From the NCBI GenBank assembly GCA_014859345.1, contig JACUUL010000006.1, positions 1-61,066 on the forward strand: a DNA stretch of 61,066 nt. Direction: 5' to 3'. Under the pieces are notes generated by a model. The model was not told the DNA's origin, made no database searches, and worked only from the letters and a program-made list of their open reading frames with translations. The DNA is from Thermoleophilia bacterium. Lineage in GTDB: Bacteria > Actinomycetota > Thermoleophilia > BMS3ABIN01. Positions 4,936 to 61,066 of the stretch are shown one piece after another (the first letter of the stretch is position 1; each line of letters begins with the position of its first letter). Both the position numbers and the translations under genes were made by a program.

Positions 4936-6174
4936 TTGCTACAGGAAGTCCATGTAGGCCATAAGTCTCTGGCCGATTATCAGAGCGTGGTCGTGCCCCC
5001 GCTGATCGATGAGATCAGGGAAATTGCCCGGGAGCTCGAGGGCGCCCGGGTTCTCCACATCAACGCCACCTCGTTCGGCGGAGGCGTTGCCGAGATACTG
5101 TACACGCTGGTTCCCCTGATGCGCGACGTCGGCCTGGAAACAGACTGGCGGGTGATCATGGCGGCTCAGGAATACTACGAGAGCACCAAGGTCATACACA
5201 ACGCCCTGCAGGGAAACCCCATCGGTCTTACAGACGCGCAAAAAGAGACGTACGAGCTGCATAACAAGATAGCAGCCGAATCGCTGGGAGGCGGTTTCGA
5301 TTTTATAATCATCCACGATCCTCAGCCTGTGATGATCAGGCATTTCGCCGGTGATCTGGGAGCCAAGTGGATCTGGCGCTGCCATATCGACACATCCACA
5401 CCCAACCAGACGGTGGCGGAATACCTGACACCTTACATCTCCGGATATGATACAGCGCTGTTCACGCTGAACGATTACGTCTTCCAGGATCTTGACATGC
5501 CCATCAGGGTGATATCTCCTGCCATCGATCCGCTTTCCACCAAGAACATGGCCCTCTCTCCTGAAGACGCGGATTATGTGGTCAGCCAGTTCGGAATCGA
5601 GCCGGACCGGCCGCTCATGCTCCAGATCTCGAGATTCGATCCCTGGAAGGATCCGCTGGGAGTAATAGATGCCTACAGGATTGTCAAGGAGAAATACGCC
5701 AGTGTCAGGCTGGCGCTGGTCGGCTCGATGGCCACCGACGATCCGGAGGGATGGACCTTCTTCACGAAGACGGTGGAGCATGCCGGCGACGACAGCGACA
5801 TACTCATTCTCACCAACTTGAACAATGTCGGCAATCTCGAGGTCAACGCCTTTCAGTCGCGGGCGGATTTGATAATCCAGAAATCGATCCGGGAAGGATT
5901 TGGGCTTACCATCAGCGAAGCACTTTGGAAAGCGAAGCCTACAGTTGGCGGCAATGTGGGTGGCATTCCCTCGCAGCTCGAAGATGGTTTAACAGGTTTT
6001 CTTGTCAGTTCGCCAGAGGAGTGCGCCAAGCGGTGCATAAAGATACTTGAGGATCCACCCGGAGCGAAGGTCATGGGCCGGAGGGGCAAGGAGCACGTGC
6101 GGGCCCATTATCTGACGCCCCGGCTGCTCAGAGACTACCTGAAGATGTTCATTGAGCTGAAGGGCGCCGGCTAA
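4936..6174 (+). CDS. treT: trehalose glycosyltransferring synthase (TreT), GT4 family
   Basis: A 412-aa retaining glycosyltransferase. TreT enzymes make trehalose reversibly from an NDP-glucose and glucose. The N-terminus matches that family closely: a GGGVAEIL donor loop (about 50-58), LVPLMRDVGL, KVIHNALQG and IHDPQP. The C-terminal half has the GT-B signatures SRFDPWKDP (about 233) and EGFGLTISEALWK (about 322-334). It starts with TTG at 4936, seven bases after a perfect GGAGG. It is the first gene of a trehalose block with the otsA-like gene 44 bases downstream. No trehalose-6-phosphate phosphatase is visible here. Confidence 0.88.
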   Translation: MLQEVHVGHKSLADYQSVVVPPLIDEIREIARELEGARVLHINATSFGGGVAEILYTLVPLMRDVGLETDWRVIMAAQEYYESTKVIHNALQGNPIGLTDAQKETYELHNKIAAESLGGGFDFIIIHDPQPVMIRHFAGDLGAKWIWRCHIDTSTPNQTVAEYLTPYISGYDTALFTLNDYVFQDLDMPIRVISPAIDPLSTKNMALSPEDADYVVSQFGIEPDRPLMLQISRFDPWKDPLGVIDAYRIVKEKYASVRLALVGSMATDDPEGWTFFTKTVEHAGDDSDILILTNLNNVGNLEVNAFQSRADLIIQKSIREGFGLTISEALWKAKPTVGGNVGGIPSQLEDGLTGFLVSSPEECAKRCIKILEDPPGAKVMGRRGKEHVRAHYLTPRLLRDYLKMFIELKGAG

Positions 6175-7730: not shown

Positions 7731-8106
7731 GAAAGCGACCGTCAGCGATATGATCGAAAAGGTTTTCCTTATGGGCATCGGAGCGGCGTCCCTGACCAGG
7801 GACAAGCTCCAGGAACTGGTCGACGAGCTGGTAAAAAGAGGGCAGCTGACCCGCGAACAGGGGGAGGACCTGGTTGACAAAGCGCAGCATAAAGCGCGCG
7901 AGAGAGGCATCGATGTCAAGGAAACCATGTCCCAGACTTATCAGGACACGCTGCTTGGCATGGGAATCGCCACCAGGGAAACAGTTGATGAGCTGGAACG
8001 CCGCGTGTCCGTGCTGGAGGCGAAGGTTTACGGCAAGCAGGCCCGGGTTGAGGAGCCCGATCTCGGTTTCAGGGTGACGACCACGGAAGAGGAAGAGCCT
8101 ACATAA
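7723..8106 (+). CDS. phasin-like coiled-coil protein
   Basis: A 127-aa acidic, largely helical protein. The N-terminal part (about 5-60) resembles polyhydroxyalkanoate-granule-associated or phasin-like proteins: VFLMGIGAASLTRDK, then a helix with LVKRGQLTREQGEDLVD. Residues about 90-112 (VDELERRVSVLEAKV) form a clear coiled coil. It starts at the ATG at 7723, five bases after AGGAGGG and inside the end of the otsA-like gene (8-base overlap). A granule-surface or scaffolding role is possible; no PHA synthase is in the window. The phasin assignment rests on pattern only. Confidence 0.6.
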   Translation: MNEKATVSDMIEKVFLMGIGAASLTRDKLQELVDELVKRGQLTREQGEDLVDKAQHKARERGIDVKETMSQTYQDTLLGMGIATRETVDELERRVSVLEAKVYGKQARVEEPDLGFRVTTTEEEEPT

Positions 8107-8140
8107 ATTTCAGGCAGCCTCACGGGCGGCTTCATCAGAC

Positions 8141-9586
8141 TCAGCAAAACTCTTCAACGGCGCCGCCAGGCACCCACAGCTCCAGGTCGGGCCGGCTTCT
8201 GTTGCGGTAGTCCAACCGGTAGTTCTCCCTAACGTCGCCGATCAGAATTTCCTTCGTGAGCAGGTCTCCGGCGAACAGCACCGCGCCTGGTTCAGCCTGG
8301 ATAACTTCCTGTTTCAGGCTATTAAACATATCGATTGCTTCCCGGTCTCCCCTTTTGTATTTCTCTTCCCAGAAGATGCGGTCATAAAAGTCGAGGGTCA
8401 CCGGCCTGGCGGCCTCGAGGGCGAAACAGCCCGGAACCAGCACCGGCTGGGACTCTTCGCTGTGGCTTATGATCCGGGCCGCAACCACGTCGACGTCGTT
8501 TGAATTGCTCAGGGAAAGGAAATCCCGGTCCCGGTCGACCAGCGCCGGAACCGCGAGTACCACCCATATGGCAACCGCCGTGATTGCCGGCAGACTTCCC
8601 CTCTCCGCCAGGCCGATGATGCCCCAGGCTGCGAGGATCGCCAGCGCCGGCTCAGCCAACAGGAACAGGTTGGTATCATGGCCCTCCGCCGGCAGCGTCC
8701 CCAGAAGCACCAGCCCGGATACCAGCCAGCCAGCCAGCAGGAAAAGCCTGCCTCTCAGGCCCGGACTTAATTGCTGGCGCTTTCTGATGGCCCGCACAGC
8801 GAACCAGGCCCCCACCGCCCCCGGAAAAATCAGCGGCCAATCAATGGACCAGATGCGCCTCAGACCCTCCCCGAGATTGCTGAAGCTGTAACCCTTGCTG
8901 ACCTGCGAGACAAGTATATTGTCCAAATAGGCGCCGCCGGTCAGCAGATGCATCAGCAGCGCTGCTCCGATTGAACCCCCCAGGGCAACTGCCAGGTAAA
9001 CCCAGGCCTGTTTTCTGCGGAAGAAGATCACATAAAGGACGCATACGGCCAGTACCGGCAGCCAGGTAAGCTTTGTTAGCGTGGCCAGCACGCTTAAAAC
9101 ACCGGCCCCTATCAGAGACCTGCGGGTCCTGCCGAAAAGCTGCAGGAAAATCAGCGCGGTAAGAAGGGATACCAGGGGGTCGTTCGTGAACAGTTTGGAA
9201 AAAAAGAGTCCCAGCGGGGCGAAAAGCGTCAGCACTCCCGCGAGCATGGCGATGCCGCTGTTGGCAGTGACCTTGTACGCCAGCCGCCAGACGGTGACGC
9301 CGAGGGCCGCCAGCACGCCGATGCTGAAGACTCGGAAAGGCAGGGTGCCATCATCCATCATGGACAGCGGCGCTCCGATCACGTATATCAGCGGGGGGTG
9401 CGCCGCCAGGAAATCCCGGTAGGGGACCAAGCCGCGGCTGACGGCGTCCGCAGAGATCAGGTAGGCGCTGTCGGCATCGTCCAGGCAGCTGCGATCGACG
9501 CTTGCCAGCGCCACCAACAGAAAGAACAGGAGAAAGAGCAGAAAAGCCAGGCGGTCCAGAAAAGCCGGCCGTATGAAATTAACCAT
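8141..9586 (-). CDS. GT-C membrane glycosyltransferase (dolichyl-P-mannose mannosyltransferase-like)
   Basis: A 481-aa integral membrane protein with about ten hydrophobic segments. After the first membrane helix comes DDADSAYLISADAVSRG, the acidic first external loop typical of GT-C enzymes (GT39/GT83, ArnT-like). AHPPLIYVIG follows, also usual there. These enzymes transfer sugars from a polyprenyl-phosphate donor on the outer membrane face; the acceptor is unknown. A polyprenyl-phosphate-sugar synthase (42602-43315) elsewhere in the window could supply donor. It starts at 9586 and overlaps the upstream GNAT-like gene by 8 bases, so the two are co-translated. Confidence 0.8.
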   Translation of the reverse strand: MVNFIRPAFLDRLAFLLFLLFFLLVALASVDRSCLDDADSAYLISADAVSRGLVPYRDFLAAHPPLIYVIGAPLSMMDDGTLPFRVFSIGVLAALGVTVWRLAYKVTANSGIAMLAGVLTLFAPLGLFFSKLFTNDPLVSLLTALIFLQLFGRTRRSLIGAGVLSVLATLTKLTWLPVLAVCVLYVIFFRRKQAWVYLAVALGGSIGAALLMHLLTGGAYLDNILVSQVSKGYSFSNLGEGLRRIWSIDWPLIFPGAVGAWFAVRAIRKRQQLSPGLRGRLFLLAGWLVSGLVLLGTLPAEGHDTNLFLLAEPALAILAAWGIIGLAERGSLPAITAVAIWVVLAVPALVDRDRDFLSLSNSNDVDVVAARIISHSEESQPVLVPGCFALEAARPVTLDFYDRIFWEEKYKRGDREAIDMFNSLKQEVIQAEPGAVLFAGDLLTKEILIGDVRENYRLDYRNRSRPDLELWVPGGAVEEFC

Positions 9587-55232: not shown

Positions 55233-56540
55233 TCATGAACTCAGAAAGTCCGCAGCGGCGGCCACGGTGTGTTCCAGGTCTTCATCGCTGTGGGCCAGCG
55301 ATACGAAGCCGGCCTCGAACTGGGACGGCGCCAGATATACTCCGTTCTCAAGCATGTGTTTGAACCAGTCCGCGTACATGCCGGTGTCGCTCTCCTTGGC
55401 GCTGGCGAAATCCCTGACCGGACCGGAAGTGAAGAACAGGGTCATCATGGAGCCGACCCGGTTGGCGCACCAGGGCCTGTCCCCGGAAGAAGCGGCCTTT
55501 TCCAGACCTGCCGCCAGGGCCGCGGATTTCCGCTCCAGGATATCGTAGACGCCGGGTTTGGCCAGCTCGGTCAGGGTGGATATGCCGGCTGCCATCGCCA
55601 GCGGGTTGCCGGAAAGGGTGCCGGCCTGGTATGTGGATCCCGCCGGAGCCACGGTTTCCATGATCTCGCGGCGGCCTCCGAAAGCGCCCACCGGCAGGCC
55701 GCCGCCGATGATCTTGCCCAGGCATGTCATGTCCGGAGTGACGCCGAAAAGTTCCTGGGCGCCGCCGTAAGTCACCCTGAAACCGGTCATGACTTCGTCA
55801 AAGATGAGCACCGCTCCGTACTCGTCGGCCAGCGAGCGCAAGCCCTCGAGAAACCCTTTTGCCGGCGGCACGACTCCCATGTTGCCCGCCACAGGTTCCA
55901 AGATTATGGCCGCTACCCGCTCCCCCTCGGAGCCCATTATCGCGCCGGCCGCGTCCAGGTCGTTGTAAGGAGCCAGGATCGTGTCGGCCGATGTGCCCGT
56001 GGTGACGCCGGGACTGTCCGGCAGGGAGAGAGTGGCCACCCCCGAGCCGGCCTGTACCAGCAGGCTGTCGACAGCGCCGTGGTAACAACCGATAAACTTG
56101 ACGATCTTGTCGCGGCCGGTATAGCCGCGGGCCACTCTCAGCGCGCTCATGGTGGCCTCGGTGCCGGAGTTGACCATCCGCACCATCTCTACGGACGGCA
56201 CCGCCTTTATGACCAGTTCCGCCATCTCGATCTCCAATGGGCTGGGAGCGCCGAAGCTGACGCCGTCCCGCAGGGTCTTTTCCAGTTTTTCCAGAACCTG
56301 CGGATGGGAGTGCCCCAGGACAAGCGGCCCCCAGGAGCCTACGTAGTCGATGTAGGAATTGCCGTCGGCGTCGTACATGCGGCTGCCTTCTCCCCGGGTG
56401 ATAAACAGCGGCCGCAGGCCCACGGAGCGCATGGCGCGCACCGGGCTGTTGACGCCGCCCGGAAGCAGGCGGACAGCCTTGTCGAATAGCTCATCTGATT
56501 TTGTGGTATCCAAGAGTTCCCCCGGGGAATCAGTTGGCAA
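55233..56540 (-). CDS. hemL: glutamate-1-semialdehyde 2,1-aminomutase
   Basis: A 435-aa PLP enzyme of the C5 heme pathway, producing 5-aminolevulinate. Motifs are [12 protein letters not shown] (about 28), [21 protein letters not shown] (split at about 60-78), [15 protein letters not shown] (about 120), FDEVMTGFR (about 243) and the PLP lysine in [16 protein letters not shown] (about 270). It starts with TTG at 56540 after a GAGG site, 12 bases after hemB. Order and spacing indicate co-transcription. Confidence 0.96.
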
Positions 56541-56552
56541 AGTGTCCTCGGA

Positions 56553-57527
56553 TTATTCGTTCAGCCAGCGGGCCGCGTCCTTGGCGTGGTAGGTGATGAT
56601 AATGTCCGCTCCGGCCCGCCTGATGGCGCCCAATGCCTCCAGCACGGCGCCCCTTTCGTCCAGCCAGCCCCGTTCGGAGGCGGCTTTCAGCATGGAGAAT
56701 TCGCCGCTGACGTTGTACGCGGCCACGGGGAACTTCGTCTCCTGCTTGACGCGGTGAATGATGTCCAGATATGGGAGCGCCGGCTTTACCATAACGATGT
56801 CCGCACCTTCCTCGATATCCAGGTGCACCTCGCGCATGGCCTCGTCGCTGTTGCGGGAATCCATCTGGTAGGAGCGCCTGTCCCCGAACTCCGGCGTTGA
56901 CCCGGCCGCTTCCCGGAAAGGCCCGTAGAACGCGGAGGCGTACTTGGCGGCGTATGACATGACAGGCGTGTCGCTGAAGCCTTCGCTGTCAAGCCCGGTG
57001 CGGATTGCCGCAACCCGCCCGTCCATCATGTCGGACGGAGCTATGATATCGGCTCCCGCCTGGGCATGCGATATCGCCATCTTGGCCAGCATCTCCAGAG
57101 TGATGTCGTTATCCACCCGGCCGTCCTTGACGATGCCGCAATGGCCGTGGCTGGTGTATTCGCAGAGGCAAACATCCGTGATGACCAGCAGGCCGGGCAC
57201 CTCCTCCTTGAGCGCCGCTACGGCCATCTGCACGATGCCTTCTTCGTCGTAGGCGCCGGTGCCGGCCTCATCCTTCTCGGCAGGGATGCCGAACAGGATC
57301 ACCCCGGGGATGCCCAGCTCCCGCACCTCCCTGGCCTCGTCCACCAGGTTGTTGATCGAGAGCTGGAAGCAGCCAGGCATGGACTCGATAGGATTGCGCA
57401 CGTCCTGGCCGTGGATGACGAACAGCGGAAAGATCAGCCTGTCGGGCAGCAGCTCGGTTTCCCGGACGAGGTTTCGCATCTGAGCCGACTGCCTGAGGCG
57501 GCGCATTCTGTATGAAGGGAAATACAC
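56553..57527 (-). CDS. hemB: delta-aminolevulinic acid dehydratase (porphobilinogen synthase)
   Basis: A 324-aa enzyme joining two 5-aminolevulinates. Landmarks are DVCLCEYTSHGHCGI (about 117-131, metal-binding Cys), MSYAAKYASAFYGPFREA (about 195, active-site Lys), VMVKPALPYLDII (about 245, second Lys) and YNVSGEFSM (about 270). The GTG start at 57527 follows AAGGAG by six bases. First gene of the operon behind the promoter at 57658-57686 and the Rex-like operator. The order hemB-hemL-rex is unusual in mixing heme synthesis with its redox regulator. Confidence 0.96.
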   Translation of the reverse strand: MYFPSYRMRRLRQSAQMRNLVRETELLPDRLIFPLFVIHGQDVRNPIESMPGCFQLSINNLVDEAREVRELGIPGVILFGIPAEKDEAGTGAYDEEGIVQMAVAALKEEVPGLLVITDVCLCEYTSHGHCGIVKDGRVDNDITLEMLAKMAISHAQAGADIIAPSDMMDGRVAAIRTGLDSEGFSDTPVMSYAAKYASAFYGPFREAAGSTPEFGDRRSYQMDSRNSDEAMREVHLDIEEGADIVMVKPALPYLDIIHRVKQETKFPVAAYNVSGEFSMLKAASERGWLDERGAVLEALGAIRRAGADIIITYHAKDAARWLNE

Positions 57528-57636
57528 CCGAAGCTCCTTAGATTGATATGGTCATCCTGTTAACGTATCCCGGGCAAACAAATTGCGCCCATCCTGATCT
57601 AACAAAGCCTGACGGAGGACCTCTCCTCCCGCTCGC

Positions 57637-57654
57637 TTGTGTAGATTTTCACGA
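57637..57654 (-). promoter_or_regulatory. Rex operator-like site
   Basis: TTGTGTAGATTTTCACGA has the TTGTG-N8-CACAA form bound by Rex, with two departures from the ideal palindrome. It lies three bases downstream of the -10 of the hemB promoter, covering the transcription start. It fits the presence of rex three genes downstream. Confidence 0.6.
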
Positions 57655-57657
57655 AGT

Positions 57658-57686
57658 ATATTAACGCAGTCAGTGGGGCTGGTAAA
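57658..57686 (-). promoter_or_regulatory. promoter of the hemB-hemL-rex-ubiD-ubiA operon
   Basis: On the minus strand TTTACC (57681-57686) and TAATAT (57658-57663) are 17 bases apart. The leader to hemB is about 120 bases and contains a GGAGG/CCTCC hairpin (57614-57629). Confidence 0.55.
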
Positions 57687-57701
57687 CCGCAGGCCGAAAA
57701 A

Positions 57702-58469
57702 CTATGGGCTTTCCAGCTTTTCCAGGATCTTCTCAACCTCCGCCGAATATCCCGGGGCCGTGTCATAGGGGGTAGCGGCTGCCAGGTCGGCCCGGCGCAC
57801 GTCTTCGTCGAAGGGGAGGCAGCCGATCACGTCATATTCGCTCTTCATCTCGCGGCAGAAGTCCTCATCGGCTTCAGTCACCTTGTTGACCACTATATGG
57901 ATGTTGGTAATACCAATATCAGCGGCCAGTTTGCGGATCTTCTCCGCAGTCTGCAGAGAGCGGCGCCCGGGTTCCACGACCACGAGCATCGCGTCCACGC
58001 CGCGAGCGGTGGCGCGTCCCAGATGCTCCAGGCCGGCCTCCATGTCCACGATGACCACATCCTTTTCGCCCAGCAGGAGATGTGACAGCAGGGACTTAAG
58101 AAGCGCCGATTCGGGACAGATGCAGCCGGCGCCGCCGGTTACCACAGTTCCCAGCCTGAGCAGGCGCACGCCGTGCGCCTCCACCGAAAGGCTCTCGGGC
58201 AAGTCATCAACCGTGGGGTTCATCTTGTAGACCGGAGCCATGGCGCCCGGCTCGGCGCCGGTCCGCTCTTTGATCAGCTGTGTCATCTCAGAGATGGGAA
58301 CGACGGTCTCGGCTACTTCGGGAGGTATGCCAATCGCTGAAGCCAGATTTGCATCCGGATCGCCGTCCACGGCGTATACCCGCATGCCCCGGCCGGCGAG
58401 GATTCTCGCCAGGGTGCCGGCAACCGTGGTCTTGCCGACTCCTCCCTTGCCTGTAACCGCAAGTTTCAT
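57702..58469 (-). CDS. cooC: CooC-type carbon monoxide dehydrogenase maturation ATPase
   Basis: A 255-aa MinD/SIMIBI-class ATPase that helps insert nickel into CODH. Deviant Walker A is GKGGVGKTT (about 8-16), switch I is DGDPDANL (about 35-42), and the metal-binding CxC lies in GAGCICPESALL (about 112-123). Walker A' appears as VIVDMEAGLEHLGR (about 138). The CxC motif is the CooC hallmark and distinguishes it from MinD. The structural CODH genes are not in the window. Nickel import is encoded at 36-40 kb. Confidence 0.93.
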   Translation of the reverse strand: MKLAVTGKGGVGKTTVAGTLARILAGRGMRVYAVDGDPDANLASAIGIPPEVAETVVPISEMTQLIKERTGAEPGAMAPVYKMNPTVDDLPESLSVEAHGVRLLRLGTVVTGGAGCICPESALLKSLLSHLLLGEKDVVIVDMEAGLEHLGRATARGVDAMLVVVEPGRRSLQTAEKIRKLAADIGITNIHIVVNKVTEADEDFCREMKSEYDVIGCLPFDEDVRRADLAAATPYDTAPGYSAEVEKILEKLESP

Positions 58470-59077: not shown

Positions 59078-60430
59078 ATGAAGTCAAGTTGGAAAGTAAG
59101 CCTAGTGGCCGTCGCCATCATGGCGCTGGCCCTGGTGCCAGTTCTTGGCGCCAGCATAGGCACTGCTGCCGCGCCGGATTCGCAGCTCAGCGATGATATT
59201 GTATTCATGGGCAACGGCGGTCCGGGCGGCAACAACGTCAAGGTGCTCGACATCGACGCCATGGCGGTGGTAAACACCATTGGCGGCGGCGGCCTGCTGG
59301 CCAATAACCACGGCGTGCTGGTGGAGGACGGCGTCCTCTGGAACGCTAACGCCGCGCTGGCCGGTTACGACAGCCGTATCGTCAAGCTCGATCTCGGCAC
59401 TCTGGCGCAGTCCTCTTACGAAGTGGCTAGCGCCGACCAGTACGCGTTCACGGCCGGACTTTGCGGCATCGAATTTGCTCCGAACGGAAAGATCTGGGCT
59501 ACCTCGATGTCCGCGGCTGCCGGCAACGGCGGCATCTACGAGTTCGACAAGGCCACCGGCAGCACCGGCGGCTACGTGAATCCCGGAGTGGGCGCCGATA
59601 ACCGCGCCACCTGCGGCATCGGCTGGAGCACCGACGGCACCACCGCCTACGCTTCACTGATGCCCGCCAAAAAGCTCACCACGATGGCGTGGCCGGGTGG
59701 CGCGATAAGCGATCAGCTGGATATCATCGACACCGGCGCCCTGCACATCCTCGACGTGGCCCGGACCGCTAACTATGCCTACGTGACAGGTGGAAACATC
59801 AGCGGCGACAGCAAGCTGGCGGTCGTCGACCTGTCCAGCGGCGCGCAGGTCGGTGTAACAACCGTAGCGGGCGGCGGCGACATGCACGGCCCCACGGTGG
59901 CCCATGACGAGGGCTTCCTGTATGTGCACTCCCGGGGCGGCTCCGCCGGCATCAATCCGTCCTTCCCGGGCACTACGTTCATCTTCGACATCGGCGGCGG
60001 CTCTGCCGGAGGCACAAAGACCGCGCCTGCACTGATCGGCCAGGTCGCCGACGAAGGCACAGGCGGCATCTCCTGCGGCACCGATGTGGCCACCAAGAGC
60101 GACTACTGCGCCAAGCCGGCCCTGAGCCTGAGCAAGACCAACGTCTACTGGGCCAGCTATGCCGACTACACGGACCGGAACCTGTCGGTTGACTACAGCA
60201 TCGGCAACGGCTCCGCTCTGGCGGCGGCTCATAACGTGGCCATCAGCGGCACCGTCAACACCAACGGCGTCACCATGGTAAGCGCCTCCGCGGTGGGCAA
60301 CATCGCTGGCGGCGGCAGCGCACCGGCTACGGTCGTTTACAACGTGCCTGCGGGCGTAAGCTCGTTCAATACCACAGTACAGGCCACTGCCAACGATCTG
60401 TGCAACAACTCCTACTCCTACCCCGCCTAG
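59078..60430 (+). CDS. secreted beta-propeller-like protein with C-terminal Ig-like domain
   Basis: A 450-aa exported protein. The signal peptide (about 1-31) ends in a likely cleavage site after GTAAA. Residues about 40-345 hold glycine-rich units of about 45-55 residues recalling a beta-propeller: NNVKVLDIDAMAVVNTIGG, SRIVKLDLGTLAQ, GGIYEFDKATGSTGG, LHILDVARTANYAYVTGG and SKLAVVDLSSGAQVG. The last 100 residues (DRNLSVDYSIGNGSALAAAH onwards) resemble a DUF11/CARDB-type Ig fold and carry a late Cys. Few Lys, many Gly/Ala. Surface display is likely; binding or enzymatic function unknown. It is followed after 80 bases by a RiPP-like peptide gene. Confidence 0.75.
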   Translation: MKSSWKVSLVAVAIMALALVPVLGASIGTAAAPDSQLSDDIVFMGNGGPGGNNVKVLDIDAMAVVNTIGGGGLLANNHGVLVEDGVLWNANAALAGYDSRIVKLDLGTLAQSSYEVASADQYAFTAGLCGIEFAPNGKIWATSMSAAAGNGGIYEFDKATGSTGGYVNPGVGADNRATCGIGWSTDGTTAYASLMPAKKLTTMAWPGGAISDQLDIIDTGALHILDVARTANYAYVTGGNISGDSKLAVVDLSSGAQVGVTTVAGGGDMHGPTVAHDEGFLYVHSRGGSAGINPSFPGTTFIFDIGGGSAGGTKTAPALIGQVADEGTGGISCGTDVATKSDYCAKPALSLSKTNVYWASYADYTDRNLSVDYSIGNGSALAAAHNVAISGTVNTNGVTMVSASAVGNIAGGGSAPATVVYNVPAGVSSFNTTVQATANDLCNNSYSYPA

Positions 60431-60510
60431 CCTGAATAACGCCAGGGCAACAAGGTAGCAGCGAGGAGCAGCCAGTGCTAACGACACTGAGGATGAAGGG
60501 AGAACGCAAT

Positions 60511-60648
60511 ATGGCAGTTACAAAGAGCGACCATCGGGAGCCTTACGCGAAGCCTGAGCTGGTCAGGCACGAGAACCTGAAGGAGATCACCTTCGAGTGC
60601 GCCGACTGGCAGTGCAGCGTTCAGGTTCCGGGCGAGCCGTCCGCATAG
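60511..60648 (+). CDS. candidate RiPP precursor peptide with lasso-type leader
   Basis: A 45-aa peptide starting MAVTKSDHREPYAKPELVRH. The leader has Y12-x2-P15-x-L17 and Thr27, the pattern that PqqD-like recognition proteins bind in lasso-peptide and related precursors. The putative core after about residue 27 is FECADWQCSVQVPGEPSA, with two Cys (30 and 35) in C-x4-C spacing around a Trp. There is no Gly/Ser at core position 1 with Asp/Glu at 7-9, so a classic lasso ring is unlikely; a thioether, cyclophane or disulfide product is more plausible. The start has GGGAG eight bases upstream. Modification genes would lie past the window. Confidence 0.65.
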   Translation: MAVTKSDHREPYAKPELVRHENLKEITFECADWQCSVQVPGEPSA

Positions 60649-60680
60649 GCGGTTAAACGGTCGATCAAGACGAGAAAGAC

Positions 60681-60708
60681 GGGAGGAAGGCCTCCGGGCC
60701 TTCCTCCC
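60681..60708 (+). other. 12-bp perfect hairpin after the precursor gene
   Basis: GGGAGGAAGGCC pairs perfectly with GGCCTTCCTCCC around a TCCG loop, 32 bases after the precursor stop. There is no T-run, so it may stabilise the 3' end of a processed precursor mRNA or act as a partial terminator. No gene is seen between it and 60916. Confidence 0.8.
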
Positions 60709-60915
60709 GCGCCAGGATGAGATCGAGTCACATCCGGATATCAGTAAGACGTTCTGCGCCGGATCATGATAAAGAAGTACTGTTCCGGCAGACAACAACC
60801 GGCGCCTGACCGGGCGCCGTGAAGGGGGTTTTGGGACCTGCAGCATGGGTCTGAAAGGAAGAAGGCCCGAATATCGGGTCAAATTTTCATCTGAGGATGA
60901 AGGGAGGAAGTACTT

Positions 60916-61066
60916 ATGCAAGTAAGTTCCAAATTGCTGTTTAAAACGGCAATATTATTGCTGGGCCTGCTGCTGGCGGTATCGGTTTTCGTGGGCATAA
61001 GCGCCCAGAAGGCCAGCGCCCTCAACGCCAGCCAGTGGGAAACCGTGCGCGGCTACGTCGATTCTT
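60916..61066 (+). CDS. secreted protein, N-terminal fragment (cut by the window end)
   Basis: The first 50 residues are visible. MQVSSKLLFK and a hydrophobic stretch (about 11-29, TAILLLGLLLAVSVFVGIS) end in a signal-peptidase site near QKASA-LN. A perfect GGAGG lies eight bases before the ATG, inside a 16-base sequence also found before the precursor gene. The mature protein begins LNASQWETVRGYVDS; no family is recognisable from this length. Confidence 0.7.
   Translation, partial: MQVSSKLLFKTAILLLGLLLAVSVFVGISAQKASALNASQWETVRGYVDS

Follow-up and report, generated by a model that had tools for sequence, protein, structure and literature searches.

The peptide gene and its neighbourhood

The window, i.e., the whole stretch of 61,066 nucleotides analysed here, is a complete contig (G000:C27) of a Thermoleophilia bacterium. 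Close to its right end, a short gene (60511..60648, plus strand; ATG at 60511, stop codon ending at 60648) encodes a 45-residue precursor peptide, MAVTKSDHREPYAKPELVRHENLKEITFECADWQCSVQVPGEPSA, in which Tyr12, Pro15, Leu17, Thr27, Cys30, Trp33 and Cys35 can be read. A putative ribosome-binding site recognised by sequence, AAGGGAG (60496..60502, plus strand), precedes the gene, and comparable sites precede its homologues. The preliminary description of this DNA had given the gene the same boundaries and pointed to the leader signature formed by the Tyr, Pro, Leu and Thr residues, as well as to the odd placement of the gene between two genes for secreted proteins (59078-60430 and 60916 onward); our reading agrees on each of these points. 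Just 3′ of the gene there is an inverted repeat, CGGGAGGAAGGCCTCCGGGCCTTCCTCCCG (window positions 60680-60709), that lacks a T run; it may limit read-through or stabilise a short mRNA.

The upstream gene (59078..60430, plus strand) codes for a propeller-like protein of 450 amino acids with a signal peptide and a C-terminal Ig-like domain; the propeller call relies on a weak SGL match (E 0.0042) that falls under the cut-off. The second secreted protein (MQVSSK...; 60916..61066, plus strand) is cut by the contig end. Its counterpart in relatives has this Ig-like domain at the C-terminus, and a further peptide gene comes next. To the left, hemL-, hemB- and CooC-like genes (55233..58469, minus strand; named by reading) are syntenic with other family genomes and anchor the locus.

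The gene order in relatives is, with variations, hemL-hemB-CooC, then propeller-Ig, peptide, lipoprotein, the HPr-kinase-like gene K, MQxSK-Ig and peptide, then a flank that includes bacA and ispE (flanks named by reading). Contig 56 of the same genome as the window starts with the right half of this locus (Ig, peptide, lipoprotein, K, bacA, ksgA, ispE). As the window contains the left half, synteny suggests that the lipoprotein and K genes probably lie within a few kb beyond the window end.

A conserved precursor with a lasso-type leader

Searches of the window's own genome returned seven strong paralogue matches to the peptide (E 2e-28 to 2e-9). A profile built from 32 homologues matched in all 19 family genomes, with 4-12 near-identical copies in each, and in none of 41 genomes of the same class outside the family. 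A larger sample of 399 class genomes gave matches in 19, all of them members of this one family, and none in the other 380. A scan of 84,980 species retrieved matches in assemblies titled Thermoleophilia, Gaiellales, Actinomycetes/Actinobacteria or Bacterium BMS3Abin01 and one more in an assembly titled uncultured bacterium, with no further sources. The host family consists of uncultivated Actinomycetota of sediment and subsurface. The ratio of nonsynonymous to synonymous changes, counted over single-base codon differences among 57 distinct peptide DNA sequences, was 0.36 versus 3.58 expected (omega ~0.1), and third codon positions accounted for 18,642 differences as compared to ~6,700 for the first and second positions each. 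The ratio, being far under the neutral expectation, shows strong purifying selection on the reading frame, and the 45-residue peptide encoded at 60511-60648 is the product of a real gene and not a chance open reading frame. The preliminary description was to be given up if there were neither a modification enzyme within about 15 kb nor conserved homologues in related genomes; homologues proved to be abundant.

In lasso precursors, YxxPxL occupies positions -17 to -12 and the penultimate leader residue is critical (PMC10368454); the leader residues matter to B1 (a PqqD-like RRE), to the B2 leader peptidase and to a kinase (PMC10368454). When the cut is placed one residue past Thr, as in lasso precursors, Tyr falls at -17, Pro at -14, Leu at -12 and Thr at -2 of the peptide studied here, which is the lasso-leader register. 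The leader would thus comprise residues 1-28 (60511..60594, plus strand) and the predicted core would be ECADWQCSVQVPGEPSA (60595..60645, plus strand). The pattern (Y/N)xxPx(L/I)x9T is kept in 59 of 59 distinct homologues, and their register (-17 Tyr, -14 Pro, -12 Leu/Ile, -2 Thr) is exact in every one, with Tyr replaced by Asn in two; the pattern used to collect these homologues presupposed Pro, Leu and a T-F-x-C-x-x-W-x-C core but left Tyr and the exact spacing free. Conservation of the leader and Cys positions in relatives, which the preliminary description proposed as a check, is borne out, Tyr, Pro, Leu, Thr and Cys being invariant or nearly so.

The predicted cores are 15-21 residues long and read E/D/Q-C-x-x-W-x-C-S-V-x-V-P... 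As can be seen from the alignment, C2, W5, C7, S8, V9, V11 and P12 are invariant, and Ser8 is found in all 59 homologues. The cores listed have Cys7, Ser8 and Val9, and none of the 59 has Asp or Glu at these positions. The sequence thus rules out an ordinary lasso ring; the lack of ring residues had been noted earlier for the single peptide. The C-x4-C pair, which the preliminary description had pointed out in the core, is typical of the main core class; only W-x-C-S is common to both main classes.

Precursors of the second class have the same leader and W-x-C-S, lack the first Cys and mostly carry Asp/His/Ser-rich tails (L143:6730-6882, L144:6216-6467, L145:6757-6996, L146:6571-6771, L147:6814-7403, L148:6750-6893, L149:6506-6667 and L150:6554-6730). 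At several loci, Ig-domain secreted proteins adjoin them. Divergent cores behind the same leader have W-x-C-S and then an Asp/His-rich tail or, in one case, are of C-W-E-C type; of nine loci read, four have such a precursor beside a secreted protein with the YWxSxxDY Ig-like domain described below. In a different family of the phylum, there are mini-precursors, some of them tandemly arranged, that share the YxxPxL...T leader; their cores, which mostly begin with Gly after T-K/R, have only ~10 residues and are too short for lassos (L163:5880-6127, L164:23-783, L165:3265-3692, L166:147-251 and L167:9739-9897). They are located near radical SAM-like genes and, in one locus, near nucleotidyltransferase-like genes.

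Probable processing enzymes encoded in trans

An RRE, B2 or radical SAM gene had been expected next to the peptide gene. No such neighbour was found: the contig ends, and RRE and B2 are each encoded once, elsewhere. The single PqqD protein and the single PF13471 protein of the genome are products of adjacent genes on contig 81, in an operon that encodes the HPr-kinase-like protein K (358 aa), the PqqD/RRE protein B1 (104 aa), B2 (147 aa) and a DUF2079 membrane protein; no precursor is present inside the operon. B2 scores 50.4 bits against the NF033537 lasso_biosyn_B2 model (cut-off 33), and its Cys and His are conserved in seven genomes. B1 is over the PF05402 cut-off, with a PqqD score under the lasso-specific cut-offs. 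In other family genomes read, K-B1-B2 adjoins the same hemN/dnaJ-type genes.

The enzymes and the peptide co-occur. B2 is present in 16 of 19 peptide-bearing genomes versus 5 of 41 genomes without the peptide (Fisher p 9e-8); the three family genomes without a B2 match are 69, 92 and 78% complete. Full-length K is confined to the family, and in 14 of the 15 genomes that have a second K, the distance from it to a peptide gene is at most 2.3 kb (in the one pair aligned, it is 38% identical to the first K). The position of the second K beside peptide genes ties the peptide loci to the enzyme operon; of the candidate modification genes, only an HPr-kinase-like one was found in these loci. We thus consider it likely that the peptide is processed by K-B1-B2, an operon that may serve other precursors as well. 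One could suppose instead that the product is a small intracellular protein, a regulator or a zinc-binding peptide, that stays unprocessed and merely looks leader-like. A weak match of the peptide to the Ogr/Delta zinc finger (E 0.0085, under the cut-off) fits this explanation, but the peptide has only two Cys residues, one of them absent in the second class, and the exact lasso register in 59 of 59 homologues and the co-occurrence with B2 and K make it quite improbable.

The closest known systems are phosphorylated lasso peptides (bsf of Bradymonas, paeninodin type), which comprise A, B1, B2, C, D and K. Shared with them are the leader register, a PqqD-type B1, the lasso B2 protease and the HPr-kinase homologue and, in one genome (L069), a nucleotidyltransferase-like gene that comes after both B2 and the DUF2079-like gene (named by reading). 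Unlike them, the operon described here lacks cyclase C and transporter D, the core lacks a ring acceptor, and there are many unlinked, near-invariant short-core precursors paired with Ig-domain secreted proteins. The HPr-rel-A and SynChlorMet cassettes (TIGR04352/04353 and TIGR04248/04249) likewise combine HprK-related and PqqD-like proteins; however, scores are far under the curated cut-offs (for HprK_rel_A, 65 and 64.5 bits versus 200), and the present system has a lasso B2 and short leader peptides.

The YxxPxL leader with Thr at -2 and the PqqD-like RRE and B2, encoded in the genome away from the precursors, are lasso features, whereas Asp/Glu at core positions 7-9 and an asparagine-synthetase-like cyclase C are missing. 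As these two features define lasso peptides, the system is built of lasso parts yet is not a lasso peptide. An ordinary lasso peptide was therefore rejected, there being no ring acceptor and no cyclase consistent across genomes. A lasso peptide whose unrecognised ring chemistry depends on an asparagine-synthetase-like protein encoded elsewhere would account for the leader, B1, B2 and K, and the window's own genome does encode asparagine-synthetase-like proteins, one of which has Ser in place of the catalytic Cys. Yet the K-B1-B2 operon contains no lasso cyclase, a 98% complete genome with 11 peptides (G002) encodes no full-length PF00733 protein, and the cores, besides lacking Asp/Glu at positions 7-9, end in Pro-rich tails, which makes such a peptide very improbable. 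An asparagine-synthetase-like protein that starts with MSGI, its catalytic Cys being changed to Ser, was seen at L157:6571-8451, with a normal MCGI copy and radical SAM-like genes nearby.

Alternatively, the conserved Cys and Trp might be crosslinked into a thioether or cyclophane RiPP by an enzyme encoded elsewhere, radical SAM or other, with B1 as the docking domain. The invariance of C2, W5 and C7, the presence of W-x-C-S in both main core classes and, in several genomes, the location of a SPASM radical SAM gene in the vicinity of the K-B1-B2 operon are all in line with this proposal. However, that protein, the best candidate, is missing in 5 of 12 family genomes searched, one of them 98% complete, and its gene sits among glycosyltransferase-like genes. 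No radical SAM enzyme was present at the peptide loci read. Across the family, neither a lasso cyclase nor a dedicated radical SAM enzyme was seen to co-occur consistently with the peptides, the above candidate being the radical SAM protein surveyed. We consider crosslinking of this kind unlikely. A separate PqqD-radical SAM-kinase-like system with signal-peptidase-like neighbours was noticed at L067:8146-10518, L068:2731-5056 and 7837-9268, and L065:2405-2590, a Cys-rich candidate precursor (RRPYRAPAVERVPLVAEEAVLFNCKCQAP...) being encoded at L065.

The Ig-like partner domain and a proposed role of the core

The constant partner of most peptide genes is an Ig-like domain of ~105 residues with the motif YWxSxxDY; in the window, this 'YWASYADY' domain is encoded at 60113..60427 (plus strand). 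Nearly all upstream proteins end in one, usually 10-110 nt before the peptide start, and are otherwise varied: propellers, fibronectin-like proteins, or a signal peptide plus one domain (153 aa). The preliminary description associated the peptide with the propeller gene; homologues are indeed conserved beside secreted proteins, but it is the Ig-like domain that is constant and the propeller that is incidental. On contig 8, the order is reversed, the peptide gene being followed by a protein with an N-terminal Ig-like domain, so that here, again, the domain is on the side of the peptide gene. All seven peptides of the window's own genome abut an Ig-like domain (one a divergent copy), as do 32 of 38 elsewhere, counted on named contigs with contig-edge cases left out. 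Of the six peptides without such a neighbour, five represent a single orthologue located beside hemC/hemA, with no Ig gene (L092, L096, L099, L102 and L111; peptide near 6000 or 3000). The other flank of this orthologue is mostly a LOG-like or helicase-like gene.

The Ig-like domain is expanded to 11-39 copies per family genome, with a single weak match among 41 other genomes, and no Pfam match to it was obtained in the proteins scanned. We rejected the notion that a peptide accompanies each Ig-like domain: in the window's own genome, ~7 of 29 domain matches have one and ~22 do not. Since most copies lack a peptide, the peptide serves a subset of them.

In three loci, the peptide and the Ig gene are in one frame with a single TAA between them. 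Two AlphaFold co-folds were made, both of artificial read-through chains, with TAA read as Gln in the first. In the first model, the Ig-like sandwich has pLDDT 94-98, core residues 160-164 form a strand (block mean pLDDT 91), and the leader and linker have low pLDDT. The core strand presumably pairs with the Ig-like domain, because the model contains no other ordered partner. In the second co-fold (another locus, alignment without fused rows), the core again forms strands, with pLDDT of only 61-63, i.e., the confidence of the first model was not reproduced. Together, the two models are suggestive of core docking to the domain. The nearest PDB folds to the Ig model include the TRAP, COPI and gamma-adaptin appendages and CARDB (3idu). 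The modelled partner domain resembles CARDB and adaptin-ear-like folds in being an Ig-like sandwich; unlike them, it is family-restricted among 60 genomes searched, bar one weak match.

Our leading interpretation, to which we give a little less than an even chance, is that the peptide is a short, cyclase-less derivative of lasso precursors that is processed in trans and works with the Ig-like domain of the adjacent partner. B1 would bind the YxxPxL leader and present it, and the B2 cysteine protease would cut after Phe28, one residue past Thr27. HPr-kinase-type kinases phosphorylate serines of lasso precursors (PMC10368454, PMC8498205), and K would probably act in this way on Ser8, which is invariant in the core. 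The released product would be a short linear peptide, E-C-x-x-W-x-C-S-V-x-V-P-x-x-P, perhaps with a Cys2-Cys7 disulfide. Once exported, the freed peptide would act extracellularly, together with the Ig-like domain of the secreted partner from the adjacent gene; most likely, the core would add a β-strand (S-V-x-V-P) to that domain and serve as a ligand for assembly or anchoring. The link to surface proteins put forward in the preliminary description thus appears possible; gene pairing and the two co-folds, one of them weak, point to binding of the core to the Ig-like domain. The precursor family, the leader register, the operon, the co-occurrence and the gene pairing are observed, whereas cleavage, phosphorylation, export and docking are inferred. 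Speaking against the interpretation are the low confidence of the second co-fold, the orthologue beside hemC/hemA, the many Ig-like domains that lack a peptide, a search that identified no exporter, the PqqD score under the lasso-specific cut-offs, the three family genomes without a B2 match and the possible service of the operon to other precursors.

The same K-B1-B2 processing could instead yield a released signal or antimicrobial, in which case the Ig-domain proteins are mere co-regulated operon neighbours. RiPPs of such a kind are usually secreted, the evidence for the leader and for processing is independent of the Ig-like domain, and both the orphan peptide beside hemC/hemA and the many Ig-like domains without a peptide are as expected for such a product. 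On the other hand, the core is nearly invariant among the 4-12 paralogues of a genome, unlike diversifying signals, the Ig-like domain is a constant neighbour across protein types, gene orders and core classes, and no exporter or immunity gene was seen. We consider a released product a genuine but rather doubtful possibility.

Antibiotics that are secreted, cofactors and signals are the main known products of RiPP enzymes, and precursor and enzyme genes then form a cluster. In the present family as a whole, a single conserved set of enzymes appears to act on a large number of scattered precursors with a near-fixed core, and the separation of precursors from enzymes makes the system invisible to cluster-based mining. 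If the link between the core and the Ig-like domain is true, lasso machinery would here have a structural, housekeeping role in the construction of the cell surface. The literature searched contained no description of multi-copy fixed-core precursors whose enzymes act in trans and whose partners are surface Ig domains.

A lipoprotein (~190 aa) encoded after the peptide gene and beside K (L042:9564-10121, L038:871-1443 and relatives) has a Gly/Ser-rich linker and then a GWDSGGIEIVVPPSP-like tail that resembles the peptide core; the tail, G-I-E-I-V-V-P-P-x-P, is similar to the V-x-V-P end of the core. With a position matrix of the core, three lipoprotein tails ranked 9, 10 and 12 of 676 proteins, with scores below zero, and the pattern that cleanly separated the tails was chosen after they had been seen, so that the likeness is suggestive. 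As a conjecture in which we place low confidence, the core may be a detachable β-strand, perhaps phosphorylated, that completes or locks the Ig domain of the surface protein from the adjacent gene, and the lipoprotein tail could present the same ligand on the membrane, the two making up a surface-assembly code.

Tandem Ig-like domains without peptides were observed on contigs 35 and 102 of G000 (L131, L133 and L139); after each array, a small membrane protein with the sequence LISRFEK(I/V)VL is encoded.
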